Assembly (NCBI RefSeq): GCF_900115615.1
Contig: NZ_FOXB01000007.1
Coordinates: forward strand, 1-64,000
DNA: 64,000 nucleotides
Direction of reading: 5' to 3'
Source: Hydrogenimonas thermophila
GTDB lineage: Bacteria > Campylobacterota > Campylobacteria > Campylobacterales > Hydrogenimonadaceae
This document shows, one piece after another, positions 35,187 to 52,485 of this stretch. The position numbers and the translations under genes were made by a program. The notes under the pieces were generated by a model that worked only from the letters and a program-made list of their open reading frames with translations, was not told the DNA's origin and made no database searches. Within the stretch, counting starts at the first letter, position 1; every line of letters begins with the position of its first letter.

Positions 35187-35612
35187 TCAAATATAATAAC
35201 ACACTTTTGACATAACCTCAAACCAATCTCTACTAAAGTGCTTTTTTATAAAACTCTCTTTATGAGGCAGAGTGCAAGAAGAGCAGTTTAAATGTACTAC
35301 ACCATCATGTTCGATGGTTGAACTGTCTTTAGCATTTATAGAGCATTTACTCTTTATTGTCAACCCATCTCTAAACTCTAACCCATTATCATCAAATCTA
35401 AAGTATGGACAAGCACATAAATAGCAGTTTAGCGACTCCATTTCGTGGCACTTTCTGTTTTCAGCATATAAAGGACAAAAATCTGGCTCATTTTTTACCA
35501 TATTTTCAAATCTGAAATACTCTATAATCTCATCATCACTTAAGTGCGATAACTTATCTACTATCTTTTTATGCTTTTTACCGTGAGCTTCAAACCAATC
35601 TAAATATCCCAT
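35187..35612 (-). CDS. Cys-rich metal-binding protein of the cobamide cluster
   Basis: A 141-residue protein with a dense cysteine array: C46, C55, C63, C66, C68, C90, C110, C113, the order FCPLY, NCYLCACPYF, KSKCS and NCSSCTLPH. This is the 'cysteine-rich small domain' pattern (PF04071-like) found next to or fused with corrinoid salvage and synthesis genes. It probably binds zinc or an iron-sulphur cluster. It overlaps cobC by 13 bases. The enzymatic role is unknown; sensor, scaffold or electron carrier are all possible. Confidence 0.65.
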   Translation of the reverse strand: MGYLDWFEAHGKKHKKIVDKLSHLSDDEIIEYFRFENMVKNEPDFCPLYAENRKCHEMESLNCYLCACPYFRFDDNGLEFRDGLTIKSKCSINAKDSSTIEHDGVVHLNCSSCTLPHKESFIKKHFSRDWFEVMSKVCYYI

Positions 35613-36115: not shown

Positions 36116-36852
36116 AGTATTACCCCTGTTAGTCCTATTACCTCTGCAAACTCTAATGTAGTTCCCATAACATCACCATTTGCAAATCCTAGTCTATAGA
36201 TGATATATTTTGCAACAAAAAAAGAGATTAAAACCATAAATAGCAAAAGTATCACGGCTTGTAATCCTGCGATATTGTATAAAATCAAAGTATAGAGTGC
36301 AGTAGCAAACCAAAATATCTTTCTATCAAAAGATGCTTTTAAACTCTCTAAAAACTTTGATCTAAACTCTAAAACCCTAAATAGAACTAAAAGCCCAACT
36401 CTACTAGAGATTGCAACTACAACTAAAAACAGATACTTTTTTGTCAAAAATAGATAAACAATAGATGCTATCTTTACAATTAATAAACTAACTCCCCATA
36501 AAACACCCATCGCACCTACTGTAGGCTCTTTGATTATCTCATACGCATCTTTACTAGAGTGTGAAGCATAAATTGCATCTGCTACATCAATTACAGCTTC
36601 TGTATGCAAAAATCCATAAAGCCACATATATAAAACTGCCGCTATCAATGCTCCATACCAGTGTAAACTCTCTAAAACACCAAAAGCAAAAATAGTCAAA
36701 TACCCTAAAACTGCTCCAACAAAAGGAAAGAATAGAAGCATAAATTTTAAAATATCACTTTTAGTTAAATCATCACTCTCTTTAAACCTAATAGGCAAAA
36801 TTGAAAAATATGATACAGACAGTTTTAATCCTAAATATATATCTTTTAACAA
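36106..36852 (-). CDS. cobS: Cobalamin (5'-phosphate) synthase
   Basis: CobS joins adenosylcobinamide-GDP with alpha-ribazole (phosphate) at the membrane. The 248-residue protein has about six hydrophobic helices and the signature block FLHTEAVIDVADAIYASHSSK with acidic metal ligands, then EIIKEPTVGAMGV, and a late FANGDVMGTTLEFAEV. It overlaps cbiB by 7 bases and cobC by 10, so the three are coupled. Confidence 0.93.
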   Translation of the reverse strand: MLKDIYLGLKLSVSYFSILPIRFKESDDLTKSDILKFMLLFFPFVGAVLGYLTIFAFGVLESLHWYGALIAAVLYMWLYGFLHTEAVIDVADAIYASHSSKDAYEIIKEPTVGAMGVLWGVSLLIVKIASIVYLFLTKKYLFLVVVAISSRVGLLVLFRVLEFRSKFLESLKASFDRKIFWFATALYTLILYNIAGLQAVILLLFMVLISFFVAKYIIYRLGFANGDVMGTTLEFAEVIGLTGVILCL

Positions 36853-37733
36853 AACAACACCCCTAAAGATAGAGTAACTATTATAAAAATATCCAATCTC
36901 TTTTTTATTTTTAAAGCTCTATAGATATCTTCACGCTTAATCTCTTCTCTTCCATCGCCAAAGTATGGCTTGTTTACTATTTGTCCAAAGTAACTTGTAG
37001 CTCCTCCAAGTTTAATGCCCAAAGCCAAAGCAATAGCAGATATTGGATAACCTGCATTTGGACTTTTGTGAAGTTTACCAAACTTCCAAAGCTTTAGAAT
37101 TGCCCTTTTGCTCATAAAAAGTAAGCTTATCAAAATAGCTGTAATTCTAGATGGGAGTAAGTTAGCTACATCATCAAGCTTTGCACTAAATTTACCAAAG
37201 TTTGCATAACGGCTATTTTGATACCCAACCATAGAGTCAAGTGTATTTATAGCTTTATAAACAAATGCTCCAGTAAGTCCAAAAACAGCCAGATAAAATA
37301 GCGGTGCTATTACACCATCACTTAGATTTTCTGCATAAGTTTCAATAGCTGCTCTGTTTATCTCACTTTGTGTTAGATTATCGGTATCTCTGCTTACTAA
37401 AAATCTTATCTCTTCTGGATGGTTAATAACCCTTTTTACACTCTCATAGAGCATATTGTTGGCTATTGCCATAGAACCTAAACCTGCAGCTGCTAATACC
37501 CCAAAACTTCCAAGAGATAGTAAAATATTTTCTAAAATATAGCTAACCACTCCAACAATCAAGACTAAAGATACTCCAAGAGCAGCACCTGCAAAAACGC
37601 TATCTTTATAAAACTTACTCTCAAACCACTTTATATAGTTACCCATCAAAACTACAGGATGGGTAATTTTAAACTCTCCAAATATTAAATCTATCACATA
37701 AGCAATCAAAGCTATTTCAAGATACACCATCAA
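36846..37733 (-). CDS. cbiB: Adenosylcobinamide-phosphate synthase
   Basis: CbiB (CobD of aerobes) attaches aminopropanol phosphate to cobyric acid at the membrane. The 295-residue protein has several membrane helices, an N-terminal GEFKITHPVVLMGNYIKWFE, then AAIETYAENLSDGVIAPLFY and NTLDSMVGYQNSRYANFGKFSAKLDDV, all diagnostic. Its start overlaps the stop of the AAA/PD-(D/E)XK gene by 4 bases, so it is translationally coupled to an apparently foreign gene. Confidence 0.93.
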   Translation of the reverse strand: MMVYLEIALIAYVIDLIFGEFKITHPVVLMGNYIKWFESKFYKDSVFAGAALGVSLVLIVGVVSYILENILLSLGSFGVLAAAGLGSMAIANNMLYESVKRVINHPEEIRFLVSRDTDNLTQSEINRAAIETYAENLSDGVIAPLFYLAVFGLTGAFVYKAINTLDSMVGYQNSRYANFGKFSAKLDDVANLLPSRITAILISLLFMSKRAILKLWKFGKLHKSPNAGYPISAIALALGIKLGGATSYFGQIVNKPYFGDGREEIKREDIYRALKIKKRLDIFIIVTLSLGVLFC

Positions 37734-39415
37734 ATTCTTTTAACCCAACACCTTTTTCCATCAAAGACAAGTCCAAAAGCTAAAATATTGTTATATCCTC
37801 TTTTTTTAACTAAAGAGATGTAACTATGCTTTTTTATCTGCTCTATAGCCTTATTTAGTGCATCATCTTTATCTTCTTCTTCAAACTCATCTATAGCTTT
37901 TAGCTCCATTACAATGGCAGGTTTTTCTTTGTCAGTTTTATGTAGCAAAATTATGTCAACCCTACCATACCCTGCTTCACTGTTTGAGATGATCTCATAC
38001 TCATAACTTAAATTTGTAAGCACTCCAAGTAAAAACATATGGTAGCTATTTTCATTTTTTGTATCAAAGTAACTGACACTGTCTCTTAAAAGGTATGAAA
38101 ATAGTTTTTCAAAGAGTTTAATTTCACCATTTACCAAAGCTTGTAGCAACTCATTTATATCTTGATTATTAAAACTATCTCTTACATATGATTTTATAAC
38201 ATCTCTAAAAATCATTCTACACTCACTATTTGTTGGCTCAAGCTTACAAAATAGTGCATCTTCATCATCTACTGTTTTTATATACTTCTCTTTACACTTT
38301 AAATATCCACTAAAAAACAAAAATGAAAAGAGATTATCTTTTTGATAAAGCTCACCATCTCTAAAAGAGAGATTTTCATTTATCTGAATTTCTATAGATT
38401 CATTTTTTAAAAGCTTCTCTAAATTGGTTCTAAAATCTTTAGATTTGCCTATTAAAAATCTTATGAAATCATTTGAGCTTGTATTTGCCCAGTAGGCTTT
38501 AAATTTTTTCTCTACTACAAAGTTTAAGATACTCCAAGGATTAAAAATTAGAGTATCTTTGCCAAATATGTAGCCATTGTACATCTTTATAGCTTTTTCA
38601 TGTAACTCTTTTTCTATTTTGTACTCTTGCATCAATCTTATAGTTTCATCTTTAGTAAATCCACAAGCAGTAGATAATTCATCTTCTAAAATTGTAAGAT
38701 TTCTTAAGTTATTTAAACCGCTAAACATACTCTCTTTACTAATTTTTAGTATTCCTGTAATTAGTGCTTTTTTTACATAAAGATCATTATCTTTAAAGAC
38801 TGCTGTAAAAAGATTTCTGAAAAAGTTTATAGCCTTATCATAGTAGTTCTCTAAGTATGCTGTCTGAATTGGAGTATCATACTCATCTATTAGAACTATG
38901 CAGGGAGTATTGTAGTATTTAGTTAAAAGAACAGATAGAGCTTTTAGGGAGTTTTCATAATATGCAAGTGAGGCTTGACCTTTTAAAATATTTTCTAAAT
39001 ATACTTTATACTCAATCTCATTTTCAATCTCTTCAACATTAATACTATCTAACAATCTTCTAATCTCAACTTTAATAGTACCCTTTATCTTCTCTATCAT
39101 TAGATCATAATTTAACTCTCTTATATCTTTAAATGTTAAGTATATTACAGGGTATTTACCAAAGTGGTTTTTAAAAAAATCACTATTGTAAATATAAGTA
39201 TTCTTAAAAAGATGTTCTTTTTTTTCTTGGTTTGAAAAGAAATATTTCAGAGTTGTTAAAAAGAGAGTTTTTCCAAAACGACGGGGTCTTGGCATAAGCA
39301 CTATCGAACCGTCTGTTTTAAAAAACTCTTCTATATACTTAGTTTTATCTATATAGTATTCATCATTTTCTATCAAAACCTTAAAATCACTTCTTCCTAT
39401 GGGGATCTTTTTCAT
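37730..39415 (-). CDS. AAA-ATPase-like protein with PD-(D/E)XK nuclease domain
   Basis: A 561-residue protein of the AAA-ATPase_like/PDDEXK_9 class. The N-terminus (KKIPIGRSDFKVLIENDEYYIDKT) and PRPRRFGKT Walker-A-like loop, a CIVLIDEYDTP Walker B and the C-terminal nuclease with GYGRVDIIL and AIVMELKA (D...E-x-K) are all present. The class is multiplied in many gut and environmental genomes and behaves like mobile or selfish DNA. ATG 39415 has AAGGAG 8 bases upstream. It lies between cbiP (28-base gap) and cbiB. Confidence 0.85.
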   Translation of the reverse strand: MKKIPIGRSDFKVLIENDEYYIDKTKYIEEFFKTDGSIVLMPRPRRFGKTLFLTTLKYFFSNQEKKEHLFKNTYIYNSDFFKNHFGKYPVIYLTFKDIRELNYDLMIEKIKGTIKVEIRRLLDSINVEEIENEIEYKVYLENILKGQASLAYYENSLKALSVLLTKYYNTPCIVLIDEYDTPIQTAYLENYYDKAINFFRNLFTAVFKDNDLYVKKALITGILKISKESMFSGLNNLRNLTILEDELSTACGFTKDETIRLMQEYKIEKELHEKAIKMYNGYIFGKDTLIFNPWSILNFVVEKKFKAYWANTSSNDFIRFLIGKSKDFRTNLEKLLKNESIEIQINENLSFRDGELYQKDNLFSFLFFSGYLKCKEKYIKTVDDEDALFCKLEPTNSECRMIFRDVIKSYVRDSFNNQDINELLQALVNGEIKLFEKLFSYLLRDSVSYFDTKNENSYHMFLLGVLTNLSYEYEIISNSEAGYGRVDIILLHKTDKEKPAIVMELKAIDEFEEEDKDDALNKAIEQIKKHSYISLVKKRGYNNILAFGLVFDGKRCWVKRI

Positions 39416-39443
39416 TTTATTATCTCCTTGCAACTCTACTTAA

Positions 39444-40876: not shown

Positions 40877-41614
40877 TCAATCTAAAGAAAAAAAATTACA
40901 TATTTTATTGGCTTCTTCACATTCACTACATACTTTTTCCAGATTGTCTGTTATTCGTTGAGCATAAGTTTTATAAATTTTTAAATCTTTTTTTAATTTT
41001 TTCATTCCTTCTCTATCAATATATGAGGCATATCCTAAATCAAATAATCTGTTAATTACATCATTAATATCTTCAAAATCAAAATCACTTGGTAAATCAT
41101 TAAAAATGTTTTCTATTCTATCATGTGTAGCTAATATCCAAGTTTCTGTTGAAGTAGTTGAAAGTAATAAATATATTTCATTAGGAATCTCTTCTTCTCC
41201 TAACCAACTTAAAATAGCTTTTTGTGCAAATTGTTTCCTTGAATTTTTTGTTAAACCTGTTGAACTATTGTACCTTGGAATTAAGTCAGTTATATATTCA
41301 ATAATATCAGTATCCATTTGAATAATCAAACCATTTGCATTAGATATTTTTAATAATGCTCTCCAATTTCTTTTTTGTATTAACTTAGCAAATGGATTAT
41401 CGTCTGTATCAGCATTTTTACCATAAACTTTACACCATTTTCTAACTTCTTCCCAACCATGACTAGGATAACGATATGTAGTAGCATCTCTTTGTGGTGC
41501 AAGTTCTTGAATTTCTATAGTATCATTTATGTTTTCAGAAATATTTTTTGCTATTTTATCAATAACTAATATATCAGTAGGTCCTTCACAAACAAGTAAA
41601 TATTTCTTTGACAT
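40877..41614 (-). CDS. TOPRIM-like protein paired with AAA ATPase (putative defence effector)
   Basis: A 245-residue protein whose N-terminus LLVCEGPTDILVIDKI (E10, D14) and IIQMDTDIIEYI (D101, D103) give the acidic E plus D-x-D layout of a TOPRIM fold, as in OLD-type nucleases and the DUF4435/DUF4276 partners of ATPases. A cluster of cysteines closes the C-terminus (CSECEEANKIC). The start shares a base with the upstream ATPase stop (TAATG), so the two are coupled. Pairing of an SMC-like ATPase with a TOPRIM protein recalls PARIS (AriA-AriB) and related anti-phage systems; the exact family is not certain. Confidence 0.6.
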   Translation of the reverse strand: MSKKYLLVCEGPTDILVIDKIAKNISENINDTIEIQELAPQRDATTYRYPSHGWEEVRKWCKVYGKNADTDDNPFAKLIQKRNWRALLKISNANGLIIQMDTDIIEYITDLIPRYNSSTGLTKNSRKQFAQKAILSWLGEEEIPNEIYLLLSTTSTETWILATHDRIENIFNDLPSDFDFEDINDVINRLFDLGYASYIDREGMKKLKKDLKIYKTYAQRITDNLEKVCSECEEANKICNFFSLD

Positions 41615-42804
41615 TAAAAACCTTTAGGTAATCCACCAATAGCTCCAGACAGCCATATCTCTGATAATTTCAAACCATAATATTTTTCTTCCCATTCCTC
41701 TTTAGTTGTTCCTTGAGGTGGTTTTATCTGTTTAAATTCTGTTTTTCCTGCTTCATTTCTAGCAACAACAAATAATCTATGATTAGGATCAAATAAGTCG
41801 ATAGAATCTAATGCAGTAGGATTATGAGTTGTTAAAAAAACCTGTTTTTCAGGATGTTTTTTTAATATATCTACTATCTGATTCATTAATTCTCTAACAA
41901 GACCAGGATTTAAAGTATTATCAATATTATCAACTGCAAAGATATCAGGAGTATTTTCATGTATTAAAAGTACAAGAACAAATAAAATATATAAAGCTCC
42001 TTCACTAACATCATAAGCATAAAGATCATTAAAATTTGTTTTCATAAATTTATCTTTATAAGTTACCAATATATTGCCTAAAATACTCTGTTCAGGAGCT
42101 ATATCTGTATTAATTTGATCTGTTACACCAATAGATTGAAACCAATCAAGTAGATGAAAGAAGCGTTGCAATTCATGACGACTATTATTATTCAAAATAT
42201 CAGTTAATGCTTTTGCCAATCCTCCACCATATAAGCCTAAAGGTTCCTGAAAACTATTATCACTAGCAACACCTCTTAAAATAGGTGTAGAAGGAGAAAA
42301 AATAGCAAATTCACTCAATTTATTTATAATATTATTATGTGAACCTTCATAATTTTGAATAATACTTATTATGCTTCTATTTTGTGTGATTTTAGGGATT
42401 GATTCTTTAAATAATGTTGCACCTGCTCTAGAACGTCCAGCAATCTTTTTATTATTCTTTAATAATTTTTCAGAAAAGTAAGATAAAGATTCTTTATTTG
42501 TATTAAGTTTGAAATTATAGTAAAAATCTTGCATTTTAATAGCTAACTCAAAATAATTTTTTCTTTCTACATTTCTAAATGAGCTTCTTAAAATTTCTGG
42601 TGAAGAAAGTCTAGCACCTCTTGATGAAAGCTTTTTATAATCAATTCCACCCTCTGCTGAAGCTGAAATCATTGCTAAAGCTTCTAAAAAATTACTTTTA
42701 CCTGCTCCATTAGTACCAATAAAGATATTGAGTTGCCCAAGATTGAGAGTTTGGTTTTCTATTGATTTAAAACCTTTGATCTCAATTTCTTTAATAATAT
42801 CCAC
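41614..42804 (-). CDS. AAA-family (AAA_15/AAA_21, SMC-like) ATPase of a two-gene cassette
   Basis: A 396-residue ABC/SMC-type ATPase. The N-terminus IKEIEIKGFKSIENQTLNLG leads into Walker A GTNGAGKSN at 30-38; a signature-like YDVSEGALYILF is at 265-275; the Walker B region reads FAVDNIDNTLNP at 289-300, with asparagine where the catalytic glutamate usually lies, then a switch histidine in FLTTHNPTALD. The class acts as the sensor or regulator in defence systems. It is followed by the TOPRIM-like gene and preceded by a repeat-rich control region (42824-42884). Confidence 0.78.
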   Translation of the reverse strand: MDIIKEIEIKGFKSIENQTLNLGQLNIFIGTNGAGKSNFLEALAMISASAEGGIDYKKLSSRGARLSSPEILRSSFRNVERKNYFELAIKMQDFYYNFKLNTNKESLSYFSEKLLKNNKKIAGRSRAGATLFKESIPKITQNRSIISIIQNYEGSHNNIINKLSEFAIFSPSTPILRGVASDNSFQEPLGLYGGGLAKALTDILNNNSRHELQRFFHLLDWFQSIGVTDQINTDIAPEQSILGNILVTYKDKFMKTNFNDLYAYDVSEGALYILFVLVLLIHENTPDIFAVDNIDNTLNPGLVRELMNQIVDILKKHPEKQVFLTTHNPTALDSIDLFDPNHRLFVVARNEAGKTEFKQIKPPQGTTKEEWEEKYYGLKLSEIWLSGAIGGLPKGF

Positions 42805-42945: not shown

Positions 42946-43968
42946 TTAATCTATACCATCCAAAGCCTTTTTTAAAACCCTTAAATCTCTCATCTCTTTT
43001 ACAGCTACTCTTATGTGGTAACTATCTAAAAAATCAAAGTTACTGCAATCTCTAACCATTATCTTATAAGGCTCAAAAAAAGATTGAAACCTACTAGCAT
43101 CTATTTCTAGCTGAGATAATATAAAATTTGCTTGTGATGGATATATCTTTTTGACTATAGGTGAACTTTTTAGTATCTTGGTCAAATACTCTTTTGAGGC
43201 AACATTTGCCAATTTTGAGCGTTTGTCAAAAGAGTTGTCTTTAAGAGCAGATATGATGTAAGCACTGTCAAAAGATGATATTTTCCAAAGTGGCTCTTTT
43301 AAACTTAGCTTTTGTATTGCATCTTTGTTTGATACTACTACTCCTACCCTAACACCGGCACAAGCATAATATTTAGTTAAAGATTTAACTATATACAGGT
43401 TTTCAAAACTCTCAATATATTTTGTGGCAGAGCCGCAGTTACAAAAGTCTAAAAATGACTCATCTACAATAACTTTACAACTCTTGCTCTTCCAAAGATC
43501 TAAAAGAGGCTTGATATCATAAAATTTTCCATCTGGAGTAGAAGGGTTTACAAAAATTACTATGCTACCATTTGAAGGCTCTTTGTCTAAATCATCAAAT
43601 CTATTAATATGCTCTATTTTAAAGCCGTACTTTAACGCAACTCTTTTGTACTCTAAGTATGCAGGGGAGTAGATAGTGCAAACTTTTTCAGCCCGGCAAG
43701 TTGCAAGCTCTCTAAGAAGAGAATCTATTGCTACACTAGCACCATTAAAAAGCTCTATATTACAGCTGCTAACATCATATCTTTTAGCAATTACAGAGAT
43801 AAGCTCTTCATAATTTGGATATGAATCTATCTTTAAACTATTAAAGTCAACATCAATTTTTGGCTTAATAAAATTGATATTTGATGATAGATCTATTATA
43901 TCTTCTAAATTAGAGCCAATTTTCTTGGCAAAGTTAGCAACATCTCCACCGTGGGCAAACTCTGTCAC
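42946..43968 (-). CDS. cobD: Threonine-phosphate decarboxylase (PLP enzyme)
   Basis: CobD makes (R)-1-aminopropanol phosphate (the nucleotide-loop linker) from threonine phosphate. The 340-residue class I/II aminotransferase-fold protein begins with the HGGDVANFA typical of CobD, and has IDLSSNINF, IFVNPSTPDG, the strand VIVDESFLDF and the PLP lysine in KSLTKYYACAGVRVG. In Sulfurospirillum a CobD relative uses serine phosphate to give norcobamides, so the true substrate is uncertain. It overlaps cobU by 4 bases. Confidence 0.88.
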   Translation of the reverse strand: MTEFAHGGDVANFAKKIGSNLEDIIDLSSNINFIKPKIDVDFNSLKIDSYPNYEELISVIAKRYDVSSCNIELFNGASVAIDSLLRELATCRAEKVCTIYSPAYLEYKRVALKYGFKIEHINRFDDLDKEPSNGSIVIFVNPSTPDGKFYDIKPLLDLWKSKSCKVIVDESFLDFCNCGSATKYIESFENLYIVKSLTKYYACAGVRVGVVVSNKDAIQKLSLKEPLWKISSFDSAYIISALKDNSFDKRSKLANVASKEYLTKILKSSPIVKKIYPSQANFILSQLEIDASRFQSFFEPYKIMVRDCSNFDFLDSYHIRVAVKEMRDLRVLKKALDGID

Positions 43969-44462
43969 TTAAGCCTAACTCCCAACCCAAATTTTACTTC
44001 ATATACCTCATCACAAATTGATGTCAGCTTTTGTCCTACTATTCCTGTTCTATCTACAAACTCTCTACTGACTTTGTCTATAGGTATCACTCCAGAACCT
44101 ACCTCATTTAAGACAAACAAAATATTTGCATCACACTTAGAAAGTGTTTCTAACTCTTGTAAAACCTCATCTTGAGACCAACTAATAGTGTTTAATATCC
44201 ACATACTCATACAATCTATTAAGTATGTATGACCACTGCTAATAACACTATTTAGATGCCTACTCTCCTCTATAGTGATAAAACTATCTCCCCTGCTATC
44301 TTGATGATTATCTATCCTTTGTTGCATTTGCAAATCGCCAAAGCTATTATCATAAGTAGCAATGTAGTATGGCTTTTTTTCATTAGAGATGGCCAAAGCC
44401 CTATCTTGAGCCAATTGACTCTTTCCAGATTTTTGACCACCGAAGTATAAGACTTTGATCAT
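43965..44462 (-). CDS. cobU: Adenosylcobinamide kinase / guanylyltransferase
   Basis: CobU phosphorylates adenosylcobinamide and transfers GMP to give adenosylcobinamide-GDP. The 165-residue protein has the P-loop FGGQKSGKSQLA near 8-19, RIDNHQDSRGDSFITIEE (guanylylated histidine region), LIDCMSMW and NEVGSGVIP. It is slightly shorter than the ~180-residue enterobacterial enzyme. It lies 6 bases after cobT and overlaps cobD. Confidence 0.92.
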   Translation of the reverse strand: MIKVLYFGGQKSGKSQLAQDRALAISNEKKPYYIATYDNSFGDLQMQQRIDNHQDSRGDSFITIEESRHLNSVISSGHTYLIDCMSMWILNTISWSQDEVLQELETLSKCDANILFVLNEVGSGVIPIDKVSREFVDRTGIVGQKLTSICDEVYEVKFGLGVRLK

Positions 44463-44468
44463 TAAATC

Positions 44469-45524
44469 TTATCTCAAAAAGTTCTCTATCTCTTTTGTAA
44501 TAGGCTCTTTTGATAAGCCATTTAGTAGTCCATAAACCAAAGCTCCTCCAGCTCCTACACCCTCTTTTGCTTCACCTTCATCATAGAGTTTAAGAGCAGG
44601 ATGATTAGAATGACTAAAATCAAAATCTGCATAATAGCCATCTATTTTAAAATCCAACATTTCCAAAAGTGCTTTAAGATTACTGTTTTTATCATTAGCT
44701 ACCCACTTGGTAGTACATAAAGCACAGTTGTTAAGCTCTAACTCTATACCAAGCTCTTTTGCTAAAGAGTTAGCTACTAAAAGTACACCAGCCATCTGTG
44801 TACCTCCTGCCAAAACTACATCAAATCTATCCCTGCAACCAAGAATAAATCCAGCATTGAAAATAAGCATATTATCAGAAGCTTTACCCAATCTATCAAA
44901 TATAGTATCACTATCTTTAATATTTGATAGAGTTTTTTCTATAGTTGTTTTGCGTACAGAGTTAGGTACTTCTTTAAAACTTGAGCTAAAAAACTTTTCA
45001 GCATTATAACCCAAAGCCAAAGCTGTAGTAGTAGCTGTAGTAGTTCCAGATGGAACACTCTCTGCCAATATTACATAGTCTCCATCTGGTGTATACTCTT
45101 TTCCAAACTTAAACCCTTTTTCAAAAACCTCTTTTGCATCTATATTTGCACCCTCATCAATTCTTCCACTAGGAGGTATATCAAAGCGGTGAATGGTATT
45201 TGGTACTTTTGGCTCTACTTTTAATCCTAAATTTAAAAACTCTATTGTTTCAAATGGATTTAGCAGATGAATAGCTCTAGTGATCAAAGCCGGTGTAGGT
45301 ACTCCTGTTGGAGTCTCTGCTATCTCTGTAAGACTAAAAACTTGACCTGTTGCTACAAATTCTCCATCAAGAGTTGGTGTCAGATATATAACTCCTGGTA
45401 TTCCAGCTTGAGTAATCCCAGGTATATCGGCTGTTTGTGTATTTGACAAAGAGAGCATAAATGTAGCTTTTTTACTTTTAAGTCTATCTATATCCCCTCT
45501 ATTTTTTGTAATTTGCTTTATCAT
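44469..45524 (-). CDS. cobT: Nicotinate-nucleotide:base phosphoribosyltransferase (CobT-like)
   Basis: CobT activates the lower-ligand base for transfer to the corrinoid. The 351-residue protein fits the cyanobacterial/archaeal-type CobT rather than the enterobacterial sequence: LSNTQTADIPGITQAG, the ALITRAIHLL block, ILAESVPSGTTTATTTALALG, VVLAGGTQMAGVLLVA and a late EGVGAGGALVYGLL. Base preference (benzimidazole, phenol or purine) cannot be read from sequence, and no bluB or bza gene is nearby. It lies 50 bases after the kinase-like gene. Confidence 0.88.
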   Translation of the reverse strand: MIKQITKNRGDIDRLKSKKATFMLSLSNTQTADIPGITQAGIPGVIYLTPTLDGEFVATGQVFSLTEIAETPTGVPTPALITRAIHLLNPFETIEFLNLGLKVEPKVPNTIHRFDIPPSGRIDEGANIDAKEVFEKGFKFGKEYTPDGDYVILAESVPSGTTTATTTALALGYNAEKFFSSSFKEVPNSVRKTTIEKTLSNIKDSDTIFDRLGKASDNMLIFNAGFILGCRDRFDVVLAGGTQMAGVLLVANSLAKELGIELELNNCALCTTKWVANDKNSNLKALLEMLDFKIDGYYADFDFSHSNHPALKLYDEGEAKEGVGAGGALVYGLLNGLSKEPITKEIENFLR

Positions 45525-45574: not shown

Positions 45575-46384
45575 TTACTTTTTCTTAACGTATTTTGCAC
45601 TTAAATTATAAAATATCTCAAGAAGCTCTTTATAGTCTCTATTTCCAATATATCTTGTAGCAGCATAATATAAAGAGACAAATTTCATATACTCCACAAA
45701 CTCTTTTAAGCAAATTTCTTCGCTATATCCATTAAACAGAGCTTTTAATTTATCTTGATTTAAATTTAAATTATCTATACACCAAGATATAGCTACAACT
45801 CCTAAATCAAAATATCTATCACCCATTGATGCATCGCTAAAGTCATATACACCACTCAATCTATTGCCAATAAATTTAACATTATCTCTAAATAGGTCTG
45901 CGTGGATTAAAGTATCAACTTTAGGATTGCACTCTATAAAATCAAGACACTCTTTAATTGGAGCAATATTATATTTATCTACCAAAGACTCTAAACTATC
46001 TTTACTATATTTGCCACTATCTAACTCAAAATCAAACTCAATCCTGTGCAATTTAGCTAAAAACTCTCCAATAGCCTCTACCTGAGCCGGTGTAGTCTCT
46101 TTTAAACTATTGCCTGGTATCTGCTCATAAACTAAAACCTCTCCCCCGTCTATTTCAAAGCTATCTACAATTTTTGGCACCAATAGATTGTGCTTTATCA
46201 TCTGCTGATGTAGTTTTATCTCTTTATCTATTTGAGTTTTAGATCTATCATCAAATATTTTTAGAACAAACTGCTTACCAAGAAGATATACACTTTGACT
46301 CACTCCATCACTTGTTGGGATTAAAGAGAAGTTTTGATACCTTTTTGGCAAGAGAGATTTTTCTATTTTATATTTAACTCCCAT
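45575..46384 (-). CDS. APH/choline-kinase-fold kinase in the cobamide operon
   Basis: A 269-residue kinase of the aminoglycoside-phosphotransferase/choline-kinase fold: an N-lobe lysine in FVLKIFDD, catalytic HADLFRDN (H-x-D-x4-N) and metal-binding GVYDFSDAS, DRYFDLGV. The start at ATG 46384 (MGVKYKIEK) follows GAGG and overlaps cbiA by 11 bases; an in-frame ATG 60 bases upstream lacks a site. Its neighbours are all cobamide enzymes, so it is unlikely to be a drug-resistance gene. A plausible role is making threonine (or serine) phosphate for CobD, replacing PduX; this is inference. Confidence 0.75.
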   Translation of the reverse strand: MGVKYKIEKSLLPKRYQNFSLIPTSDGVSQSVYLLGKQFVLKIFDDRSKTQIDKEIKLHQQMIKHNLLVPKIVDSFEIDGGEVLVYEQIPGNSLKETTPAQVEAIGEFLAKLHRIEFDFELDSGKYSKDSLESLVDKYNIAPIKECLDFIECNPKVDTLIHADLFRDNVKFIGNRLSGVYDFSDASMGDRYFDLGVVAISWCIDNLNLNQDKLKALFNGYSEEICLKEFVEYMKFVSLYYAATRYIGNRDYKELLEIFYNLSAKYVKKK

Positions 46385-47651
46385 CAAAAAACCTCTCAAT
46401 AATCTTAGGATTGACTCTAAATAGAGTATGCAAATATGTCCCAAAGACTTTTTTTTGATTAGTAGCCCAACTTCCCACCTCTCCTTTAGAGCCTACTCTT
46501 TTATATAGAGTATCAAACCCCTTCTTGAGTGTAGAAACAGTTGGTTTTGTGTAGTGGAATGCGTGCCCCTTGACTCCATCACTGTTATAGTAGTATCCAA
46601 GTCTGGCAAACCTATTCCCAAGCTCAAACTCTATATCTAAAACTCCACTCATTACCTTATCATCTACCTTTTTAGATAGATATAAAAGTCCTGCACACTC
46701 TGCATATATTGGCTTTGTTTTACTATGTTCAACAATTGAGTTTTTGAAACTGTTTGAATGTTTTATTCTATTATAGGCATCAACACTCTCTACATAACCA
46801 CCAGGAATATAGAGAAAGTCTGTATCATTTGGAACTGCTTCATCTTTGGTACTGTCAATTACTACTACCTCTTTAAACATCTCTTTTAAAAACTGCAAAT
46901 TATCATAGTACAAAAATGAGAAGTTCTCATCATTTACAATGGTAATCTTTTTATCTAATCTTTTAAATTTTGGAAATGGATAAGAGTTTTTGACTCTTTT
47001 TTTATGAGTTTCAGCAATTTTAGAAAGCCTGTATATATCTATATGCTCCAAAACCTCTTTAGAGATAGCTTCAATCTTTGATAAATCTCTTAAATCCAAT
47101 CCCAAGTGGGTGTCTCTTAAGCTTTCCAAATCTTTTCTTATCCATCCTAAAACCTCTATTTGATGGAACTCTTTAGAGATTAAGTTTTTAATAAGCTCAT
47201 AGTGACTCTTTGATGAGACTCTATTTATTACAACAGCTTTGATTGTATTATCTTTTCTATACTCAAGTAACCCCTTTAATAGTGCTACAATTGTAATGTA
47301 ACTCCCACTTCCATCTAAAAGCATCACTACCGGAGTATCTAAGTCTCTTGCTATGGAGTAGGTACTACAGCCTCTATCATCTCCATCATAAAAGCCCATA
47401 ACCCCTTCAATTACAGCCCACTCCTCTGTGGCATAATGATAGTAAATCCACTCTACTTGCTCTTTACTCATCATAAAGGAATCAAGGTTGATTGACTCTT
47501 TGAGAGCTACTCTTTTGTGAAATTGAGGATCTATAAAATCAGGACCAACTTTAAATGGTCTAACGTTACCTCTAAAGTGGTAAAGCAAAGCTGTAGTGAG
47601 TATTGTTTTACCTCTATTTGACCCACAAGCTGATATAGCAACTCTTTTCAT
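46374..47651 (-). CDS. cbiA: Cobyrinic acid a,c-diamide synthase
   Basis: CbiA amidates the a and c side chains of (cobalt-)cobyrinic acid. The 425-residue protein has the ATP loop ACGSNRGKTILT, a deviant form of the usual G-T-x-SG-x-GKT, then FKVGPDFIDPQFH, VIEGVMGFYDG, LYIPGGYVE and a C-terminal glutaminase with the nucleophile in AECAGLLYLS and GTYLHTLFR. hipB ends only 12 bases upstream, so cbiA is likely read from the hipA-hipB transcript or through it. Confidence 0.93.
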   Translation of the reverse strand: MKRVAISACGSNRGKTILTTALLYHFRGNVRPFKVGPDFIDPQFHKRVALKESINLDSFMMSKEQVEWIYYHYATEEWAVIEGVMGFYDGDDRGCSTYSIARDLDTPVVMLLDGSGSYITIVALLKGLLEYRKDNTIKAVVINRVSSKSHYELIKNLISKEFHQIEVLGWIRKDLESLRDTHLGLDLRDLSKIEAISKEVLEHIDIYRLSKIAETHKKRVKNSYPFPKFKRLDKKITIVNDENFSFLYYDNLQFLKEMFKEVVVIDSTKDEAVPNDTDFLYIPGGYVESVDAYNRIKHSNSFKNSIVEHSKTKPIYAECAGLLYLSKKVDDKVMSGVLDIEFELGNRFARLGYYYNSDGVKGHAFHYTKPTVSTLKKGFDTLYKRVGSKGEVGSWATNQKKVFGTYLHTLFRVNPKIIERFFDGS

Positions 47652-47663
47652 ATTTTGTCTTAG

Positions 47664-47888
47664 TTAAATCTTACAAAATGGATTTCTTGGTTTAAGCTCT
47701 ATTGCATACCCTAAAATAGAAAGTATATTATCTAGGGTTGCAACGCTAATATTTCCAAAATACCCATTTTCAAGCTTTGAAAGTGTTGTTCGGCTAAGTC
47801 CTGCCATCTTGGCTAGCTCCTCTTGTTTTAGCCCTTTCTCTTTTCGCTTTATTCTAATAACTTCTCCAATTTCTGATAACATCATCAT
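47664..47888 (-). CDS. HipB-like XRE antitoxin
   Basis: A 74-residue helix-turn-helix protein of the XRE/HipB class: IGEVIRIKRKEKGLKQEELAKMAGLSRTTLSKLENG gives the full HTH. The rest is a short dimerisation segment. It overlaps the upstream hipA gene by 35 bases. It is expected to neutralise HipA and repress the pair. The order hipA then hipB is the reverse of the E. coli hipBA operon. Confidence 0.85.
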   Translation of the reverse strand: MMMLSEIGEVIRIKRKEKGLKQEELAKMAGLSRTTLSKLENGYFGNISVATLDNILSILGYAIELKPRNPFCKI

Positions 47889-49056
47889 CTATCTCCTTAA
47901 TCGGAATTTCTAATAATGACAACTTCCAACTATCTATCATTCTCTTACCTATCTTGTTAAAATGAGGATTCTCTTTAATGTAAATTTCAAGCTCATCTAT
48001 TGAACTTTCAAGAGCTTTTTTACACTCTTCATAGAAAAGTGTAGCTTTTGTTTTAGATAAATTGCAATGCTTTACGCCAAAATTGATAAGTTCATTTTTA
48101 GTGTGCCATATCTTTTTACCATTTAGTGTCAAAGCTGGTTTATCTTTAAAAATATAAGCAGTAGTTGTAACAATATCATAAGCAGGTGCAAATCTAATCT
48201 CACTAAAGTCATCATTAAACAAAAGTCCAAAATTTTTAAGATGTGCATCTCCATTTTTTAATAAATAGTTCATCACCACAGTTTTAAAAAAATATTCCAT
48301 CGATTTTGTACTGTTTGTTACAAAAGAGTTAATGACTTTTGCAACCTGTTCATAGCTTCCTTGATATTTACTGTTTCTATTTTTATCCATCAAAGATAAA
48401 ACCTCTTCAAACCCATAAACTAAATCTCCATCATAAATAAATTTTTCAACTATCAAAAATCTTCTGTTTTTAGAAAGATATATATTTGGAATAGGCACAC
48501 CCGCTTTTTGAACAGCTTTTAGACAAAAATACTCATTTTCAGCCAAATTTTCGAACTCATCTCCCCAAGTTTTGACAATATACTCTTTTAAATCTAGTCT
48601 CTCTTTATCTCTTATTAAAGCAATAGTTTTAGGTTGAACTCCTGAGATAGCATTTTTATCTAAAAATTGATTTAGTAGATAGTTAAAAGTATCTTGCGTA
48701 TCATTATTTAAAATTTCATCAATATCTAAAAAATCAAAATTTAGTTTTTTATTTTCACTTTCAAAAGTTATTCGTCCATCTATATTTGGAGATAAAAGAG
48801 AAAATAGAAGATAATCATCAATATACCCATACTCTTTTGTCAAAAGATTTTTAAATATTTCAAAAAGATAACCCTCTGGTAAAAATGTCTCAAAATATGG
48901 TGGAAATCTATACTCCCAACTATAAATTTTCTGTGTATTTGGAAGAGAAAGAGATATAGAGTTTTCCAATTCAAGATTTTTATAATTTAAAAAGTATCTT
49001 TTTTTATCGTATATAAAATCTGCAATCTCTATATCTGAATGGAATATTTTGATCAT
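47854..49056 (-). CDS. HipA-like serine/threonine kinase toxin
   Basis: A 400-residue HipA-family kinase. The SGVQPKTIAL loop matches the HipA activation/phosphate-binding loop, and the active site is visible as KNGDAHLKNFG (catalytic D and N) followed by FAPAYDIVTTTAY (metal-binding D). HipA kinases inactivate tRNA synthetases and arrest growth. It lacks the longest N-terminal subdomain of E. coli HipA but all catalytic residues are present. It sits between cbiH and cbiA and has its own promoter-like region at 49068-49091. Confidence 0.85.
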   Translation of the reverse strand: MIKIFHSDIEIADFIYDKKRYFLNYKNLELENSISLSLPNTQKIYSWEYRFPPYFETFLPEGYLFEIFKNLLTKEYGYIDDYLLFSLLSPNIDGRITFESENKKLNFDFLDIDEILNNDTQDTFNYLLNQFLDKNAISGVQPKTIALIRDKERLDLKEYIVKTWGDEFENLAENEYFCLKAVQKAGVPIPNIYLSKNRRFLIVEKFIYDGDLVYGFEEVLSLMDKNRNSKYQGSYEQVAKVINSFVTNSTKSMEYFFKTVVMNYLLKNGDAHLKNFGLLFNDDFSEIRFAPAYDIVTTTAYIFKDKPALTLNGKKIWHTKNELINFGVKHCNLSKTKATLFYEECKKALESSIDELEIYIKENPHFNKIGKRMIDSWKLSLLEIPIKEIDDDVIRNWRSY

Positions 49057-51893: not shown

Positions 51894-52433
51894 TTACTTT
51901 TTCTTAAACTTTTTAAAAACTTTACTAAAATTTATGTCAACACTACAACTTAAACCTTCAAACTTATAAACTTGATCAAAAAAATCTCCCTCTTTATCAA
52001 ATTTACCATCTTTAAGCTTATATATTTTTGCTTTTAAATCATCTGGATAGACTAAAATGTAGTAAGGCACCTTTTCGCTTTCATAAATTTTAAATTTATA
52101 CTTCTCATCTCTTTTGCTACTGCTTTTACTTATTATTTCTACAACAATCTCTGGAGTTTTTGTTATATATGCTTCATTTGGTTCATCACATATCAAAGAT
52201 ACATCCGGTTTTAAAACAGTATCGTCACTGATTTTCCAATCTTCTTCCGCAACTACCAAACATTTATCACAATTTTCTATTGATCTTTCAAGTTCGAAAG
52301 CTACTTGCATAGCTAATGCTTGATGAGTAATCATTGGACTTGGAGCCATTGCATAAGCTATACCATCAATTAGTTCCCATTTCCCTTCCCAATGAACATA
52401 ATCATCATAAGTATAATACTCAATCGCACACAT
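51894..52433 (-). CDS. Uma2-family (DUF820) endonuclease-like protein, copy 2
   Basis: A 179-residue Uma2/DUF820 protein with YTYDDYVHWEGKWELIDG, VLKPDVSLICD and PEIVVEIISKSSSKRD. Its layout follows copy 1 at 34595-35146 block by block, so the two are paralogues. The start at ATG 52433 (MCAIEYY) has AAGGA 7 bases upstream and is preferred over an earlier ATG. It is inserted between cbiET and cbiF, 52 bases after the former and 113 before the latter. Confidence 0.8.
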   Translation of the reverse strand: MCAIEYYTYDDYVHWEGKWELIDGIAYAMAPSPMITHQALAMQVAFELERSIENCDKCLVVAEEDWKISDDTVLKPDVSLICDEPNEAYITKTPEIVVEIISKSSSKRDEKYKFKIYESEKVPYYILVYPDDLKAKIYKLKDGKFDKEGDFFDQVYKFEGLSCSVDINFSKVFKKFKKK

Positions 52434-52485
52434 AACACAATCCTTACTATCTTTAGTTTTCAAACTATATTTTACTAAAATATTT

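Follow-up and report, generated by a model that had tools for sequence, protein, structure and literature searches.

An APH-fold kinase of Campylobacterota cobamide clusters as a candidate L-threonine kinase

Gene content of the cobamide cluster

The window analyzed here, a 64,000-nucleotide stretch of the Hydrogenimonas thermophila genome, contains a cobamide cluster in which a kinase gene is found among cbiA, cobT, cobU, a cobD homologue, cobQ, cbiB, cobS, and a gene for a CobC-like phosphatase; the corrin-ring genes lie upstream of these (Table 1). The names cbiH, G, F, ET, D, C, L, X, and M were assigned by reading the sequences together with gene order. The kinase open reading frame, on the minus strand, starts with an ATG at 46,384–46,382, preceded by a purine-rich site, and encodes 269 amino acids up to a stop codon ending at 45,575. 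Its start codon lies within the 3′ end of cbiA, whose own stop codon occupies 46,376–46,374 (11-nt overlap), and cobT starts 50 nt past the kinase stop, an arrangement that bears out the sequence-only reading of a kinase overlapping cbiA and followed by cobT. The same reading had placed cobD, cobU, cobT, and cbiA in the cluster, and these assignments stood. For CobD, TIGR01140 was the best model but scored 207 bits, under its cut-off of 290.55, as was also the case for a g9 relative (212.9 bits). CobT reached 239.4 bits against TIGR00303 (cut-off 240).

Table 1. Features of the cobamide cluster considered in this study (window coordinates)
Feature	Position	Strand	Evidence
Cysteine-rich small protein, conserved in Campylobacterota cobamide clusters, possible accessory	35202..35612	-	weak PF04071
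CbiB, would use aminopropanol phosphate	36846..37733	-	PF03186 288.6 bits; TIGR00380 over cut-off
CobD-like threonine-phosphate decarboxylase, proposed user of the kinase product	42946..43968	-	best NCBIfam model TIGR01140
CobU	43965..44462	-	PF02283 130.5 bits; P-loop and guanylylation-site His intact
CobT, TIGR00303/PRK04447 type, next gene after the kinase	44469..45524	-	PRK04447.1-5 over cut-off
APH-fold kinase, candidate for the L-threonine kinase step in cobamide synthesis	45575..46384	-	Pfam APH, genome-wide PF01636 scan, fold model
CbiA, 11-nt overlap with the kinase start	46374..47651	-	NCBIfam PRK01077 over cut-off

The cluster is interrupted by non-cobamide genes at 37,730–39,433, 40,877–42,804, 47,854–49,056, and 51,894–52,463 (minus strand). 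These encode an AAA-ATPase/PD-(D/E)XK protein, an ATPase beside an unassigned open reading frame, a HipA-like protein, and a Uma2 nuclease, and look like defence or mobile insertions. In several genomes of family f7, the cobamide cluster also includes a gene for a MarC-family membrane protein adjoining cobU or cobT, detected by profile scan at L066:13492-14091 and by sequence likeness at L069:5485-6087 and L038:7065-7664.

The cysteine-rich small protein of the window is 56% identical to a protein from locus L043, and its similarity to PF04071 is weak (18.3 bits vs a cut-off of 27). Of the 51 stretches scanned, which came from Campylobacterota cobamide loci and adjacent DNA, 22 contained relatives, frequently adjoining cbiB, cobC, or the kinase gene. 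The protein may bind metal and act together with CobD or CbiB. Proteins over the PF04071 cut-off were found in four of 36 genomes, each without an APH gene in the cluster. We nevertheless rejected PF04071 cysteine-rich proteins as a replacement for the APH protein, since the weaker relative accompanies APH-positive and APH-negative clusters alike.

Fold, active site, and nearest relatives of the kinase

The kinase scored 94 bits with the Pfam APH profile (PF01636; cut-off 23.2), which places it in the APH phosphotransferase fold, and it was the only match to this profile in the whole 2.44-Mb genome. Five residues that we take to be catalytic (K42, H161, D163, N168, and D181) correspond to the Lys, HxDxxxxN, and Asp motifs of the APH fold and are invariant in 26 aligned family members. 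The gene encodes an intact APH-fold kinase. An AlphaFold model of the protein (pLDDT 90, pTM 0.87) was closest in fold to the homoserine kinase 2ppq (Z 25.3, next match 20.5), a result that the 36 homoserine-kinase-like rows in the model alignment may favor.

Outside of the class, the nearest relatives were APH-type homoserine kinases, with seven of the ten scanned passing both curated cut-offs. In a tree of 72 proteins, built with 34 homoserine-kinase-like rows of 300–345 aa (every second row) and leaving out L137, whose contig is as long as that of the G233 locus, 30 cluster-type kinases formed one group (support 83/98, recovered in 82% of bootstraps) located near homoserine kinases and thiamine-kinase-like rows. 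The origin of the cluster kinase probably lies close to the APH-type homoserine kinases. When residues were compared between 28 family rows and 34 homoserine-kinase rows, excluding the long-branch sequences L045 and L050, H161, D163, N168, D181, Y220, and R244 were common to both, with Arg244 in all 28 and all 34 rows. Position 42, however, was K in 28/28 cluster kinases vs T in 31/34 homoserine kinases, and the homoserine-kinase set N30/N32/T42 was not kept, the window protein having Q30, V32, and K42 (window numbering). The homoserine kinase equivalog models TIGR00938 and PRK05231 likewise scored under their cut-offs (67.7 vs 255.9 and 98.6 vs 271 bits). Judged by its fold and sequence, the protein would act like a small amino-acid hydroxyl kinase, yet by the cut-offs of that family it is not a homoserine kinase.

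Distribution and linkage across Campylobacterota

The absence of a PduX- or BluE-type kinase from the cluster, noted in the sequence-only reading, was borne out. The H. thermophila genome encodes two GHMP proteins, IspE and ThrB, each over its curated cut-off, and hence no PduX; ThrB already fills the role of homoserine kinase, which weakens a homoserine kinase reading of the APH-fold protein. A PduX query used with a positive control, a protein from a Klebsiella record that is named L-threonine kinase there, matches PF00288 at 46 bits, and is encoded beside cobD, retrieved nothing from this genome at E ≤ 0.1. Across 35 genomes, the search returned no PduX counterpart; the control found itself, and the best other matches (E 0.02–0.1) were mostly frames of ~300 aa that PF00288 also matched. 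PF00288 had two matches in each of 36 related genomes and a third in G010, G122, G209, and G240. Among the matches named individually (the two of H. thermophila and these four), the third proteins were rejected as a hidden PduX: heptose-7-phosphate kinase matched them best, over its cut-off in G010 and under it in G122, G209, and G240. For BluE, the query was a Rhodobacterales protein encoded beside cbiB (L214), which is presumably BluE although its record reads propanediol utilization protein, and which itself is a weak GHMP match (17.8 bits); this yielded no match at E 0.1 in the 35 genomes, a search set without a positive genome. The CbiU family TIGR02535 was over its cut-off in none of the 35 genomes, the match being confined to part of a ~500-aa frame.

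We then counted the kinase family (E < 1e-10) and CobD (at least 200 bits) in a sample of 298 genomes of the class. Five genomes with weaker matches only were left out of the kinase count (G117, G123, G218, G263, G284), as were G044 (35% identity, 185 bits, no CbiB) and a second G291 match from the CobD count. This survey identified the kinase family in 26 genomes, CobD in 29, and CbiB in 34. CobD was present in 25 of the 26 kinase genomes (contingency 25/1/4/268), a co-occurrence which exceeds chance (Fisher P 4e-31, relatedness ignored) and extends over 13 of the 16 CobD genera. The kinase thus accompanies CobD in genomes in which searches for PduX, BluE-like proteins, and CbiU detected none of these, with four CobD genomes lacking it, and both distribution patterns proposed as checks in the sequence-only reading, co-occurrence with cobD and absence of pduX, were recovered. 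Within the 35 cobamide genomes, the kinase again goes with CobD (P 0.002, relatedness ignored) while showing no association with CbiC (P 1), which is found in 12 of the 26 kinase genomes and missing in 14. The kinase tracks CobD, not corrin-ring synthesis, and we dropped a link to the latter on this basis.

The 14 kinase genomes without CbiC could also be accommodated by a kinase for aminopropanol or ethanolamine, which would salvage the free amino alcohol as a phosphate for CbiB. This phosphate would feed into the same reaction, and choline and ethanolamine kinases have a fold related to APH. However, a route that bypasses CobD would not need CobD, which the kinase accompanies in all but one genome, and the nearest relatives, with which the family shares Arg244 throughout, act on an amino acid. 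We thus regard amino alcohol salvage as very unlikely.

Exceptions to the co-occurrence were few. Only G233 encodes the kinase without CobD (none at E ≤ 1e-25), while CobD without the kinase family was observed in G009, G202, G209, and G290. The G209 assembly is fragmented, and its divergent APH protein (L120, 296 aa, 78 bits), retrieved without cob neighbours, is a doubtful candidate for the missing family member, as it groups with thiamine-kinase-like rows on a long branch. In G009, G202, and G290 (loci L065, L066, and L069), the CobD clusters include neither a kinase candidate nor CbiC, and a search for a substitute kinase in these three genomes found none; they may either encode a further unknown threonine kinase or carry a decaying pathway. 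A rival reading of the clusters in general would be that CobD itself is a bifunctional kinase/decarboxylase, as reportedly is the case for Methanosarcina mazei MM2060, and that the APH protein has an unrelated role. These three genomes would fit such a scheme, as would the presence of the cysteine-rich small protein even in clusters without the APH gene. Still, it leaves the linkage between CobD and the APH gene unexplained, and the window CobD, at 340 aa, has no visible long C-terminal extension, so that we consider it highly improbable. CbiB was found without the kinase and without CobD (200-bit count) in G056, G205, G234, G247, and G265, and three other sampled genomes of the genus to which the window belongs have no kinase, no CbiB, and no CobD.

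At the level of gene order, the kinase lies beside cob/cbi genes in 24 of the 26 genomes, the exceptions being G233 and G003, and shares a stretch with CobD in 19 of 26. Five loci (L034, L036, L051, L052, L053) show a 4-nt overlap between the kinase stop and the cobD start. Elsewhere the arrangement is looser: in four genomes of genus g50 the kinase adjoins cbiL with cobD located elsewhere, and in G015 cobD is ~12 kb away. G116 carries a compact BluB–APH kinase–CobD–CbiB group, and BluB was found beside the kinase in 6/6 loci tested, which suggests that these loci serve aminopropanol-linked cobalamin. A wider contig scan was based on a single peptide pattern, and 80 of 582 relatives were retained, so that other phyla may also have APH genes linked to cob genes. 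Among these 80, the only loci with cob genes were three further Campylobacterota loci (L135, L136, L138), in each of which the kinase directly precedes CobD.

Proximity to cobT, seen in eight loci including the window, could instead indicate that the kinase phosphorylates another cobamide intermediate, such as cobinamide or alpha-ribazole, or that it plays a regulatory role in the cluster. Yet the CobU P-loop and guanylylation-site histidine are intact in 22/22 clusters, which weakens a cobinamide kinase reading, CobT is present in many kinase-bearing clusters, and the position of the kinase varies while its presence follows CobD. We consider any such role quite unlikely.

Clusters of the norcobamide type provide a contrast. 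Serine synthesis normally proceeds through serine phosphate, while threonine phosphate has no such source, and norcobamide clusters would hence need no dedicated kinase. Four genomes (G056, G205, G234, G247) have a cluster that resembles the one in Sulfurospirillum multivorans and from which the family kinase is missing, although they represent one near-identical group and thus one event. Their CobD is divergent, scoring 60 bits against that of the window, and a protein with the same score on a named Sulfurospirillum plasmid is annotated as norcobamide biosynthesis serine-O-phosphate decarboxylase. In the portion of the published record available for the S. multivorans cluster, the gene table lists no kinase (PMC7755780), and SMUL_1544 is linked to ethanolamine phosphate (PMC4585668, in the part accessible). 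G264, from the same genus as this group, encodes both a regular CobD and the kinase. The absence of the kinase from norcobamide-type clusters favors threonine as its substrate. The kinase might alternatively phosphorylate L-serine, alone or along with threonine, with the serine phosphate passing through CobD into a norcobamide with an ethanolamine linker. The chemistry would be the same on a close analogue, and the name of the Sulfurospirillum CobD homologue is in line with such a route. This alternative is nonetheless improbable, given that serine phosphate is already available from serine synthesis, that the four norcobamide-type clusters do without the kinase, and that BluB beside the kinase points to cobalamin.

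Proposed function and comparison with known systems

We consider it likely that the kinase is the L-threonine kinase feeding CobD, for which it is the best candidate, and that it represents a further non-orthologous threonine kinase. The enzyme would have the APH fold and act as an ATP-dependent L-threonine O-3-kinase, making L-threonine phosphate, which CobD would decarboxylate to (R)-1-aminopropan-2-ol O-phosphate, to be joined by CbiB to cobyric acid; it would thereby do the job of PduX from an unrelated fold. The substrate of the nearest characterized relatives, L-homoserine, closely resembles L-threonine, which counts for threonine. We infer this substrate and reaction from the gene, its fold and catalytic residues, its linkage, its co-occurrence with CobD, and the absence of the alternatives searched for, so that the sequence-only proposal of an APH-fold kinase as a non-orthologous replacement is supported on genomic grounds, namely CobD co-occurrence without pduX.

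More tentatively, Campylobacterota may have evolved their own cobamide L-threonine kinase from APH/homoserine-kinase stock, the presence or absence of which would read out aminopropanol cobamide vs norcobamide, a broader scenario to which we assign slightly less than even chances. If true, this would be a further independent origin of the threonine kinase step and another case in which proteins of different folds have come to serve a single step. Cobamide producers often have no threonine kinase gene, and a named candidate would fill this gap for Campylobacterota and could help predict which cobamide these bacteria make. According to the part of the study available, pduX was left out of genome-based cobamide predictions as most verified producers are without it (PMC6461909). 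Our literature search turned up no earlier suggestion that an APH-type protein serves as threonine kinase; subscription papers were mostly out of reach, and an earlier proposal is possible.

Several known systems resemble the kinase in part. APH-type homoserine kinases (TIGR00938 thrB_alt/PRK05231; 2ppq) have the same fold, a similar N-terminal start, and, on the substrate proposed here, a shared substrate class, i.e. an amino acid hydroxyl, but differ in the family cut-offs, in K42 for T, and in N30/N32; moreover, homoserine kinase function in H. thermophila is held by the GHMP ThrB, unlike the APH type. PduX catalyzes the reaction proposed here for the kinase and, like the kinase, adjoins cobD in some genomes, but belongs to the unrelated GHMP family (PF00288) and gives no meaningful alignment with the window protein, which is therefore no PduX. 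BluE of Rhodobacterales, for which L-threonine kinase activity is reported in the accessible text of PMC6249242, performs the reaction that we propose here. The logic is also the same for CbiU (Dehre_1608) of Dehalobacter, described in the available part of PMC4285132 as a proposed L-threonine kinase encoded by a kinase-like gene in a cobamide operon without pduX. CbiU, however, is of the phosphoglycerate mutase-like family TIGR02535, whereas the window kinase matches PF01636 and not TIGR02535, and is hence not a CbiU. Finally, M. mazei is said to solve the same missing step with one enzyme, its CobD, whereas in Campylobacterota the kinase and CobD are encoded by separate genes.
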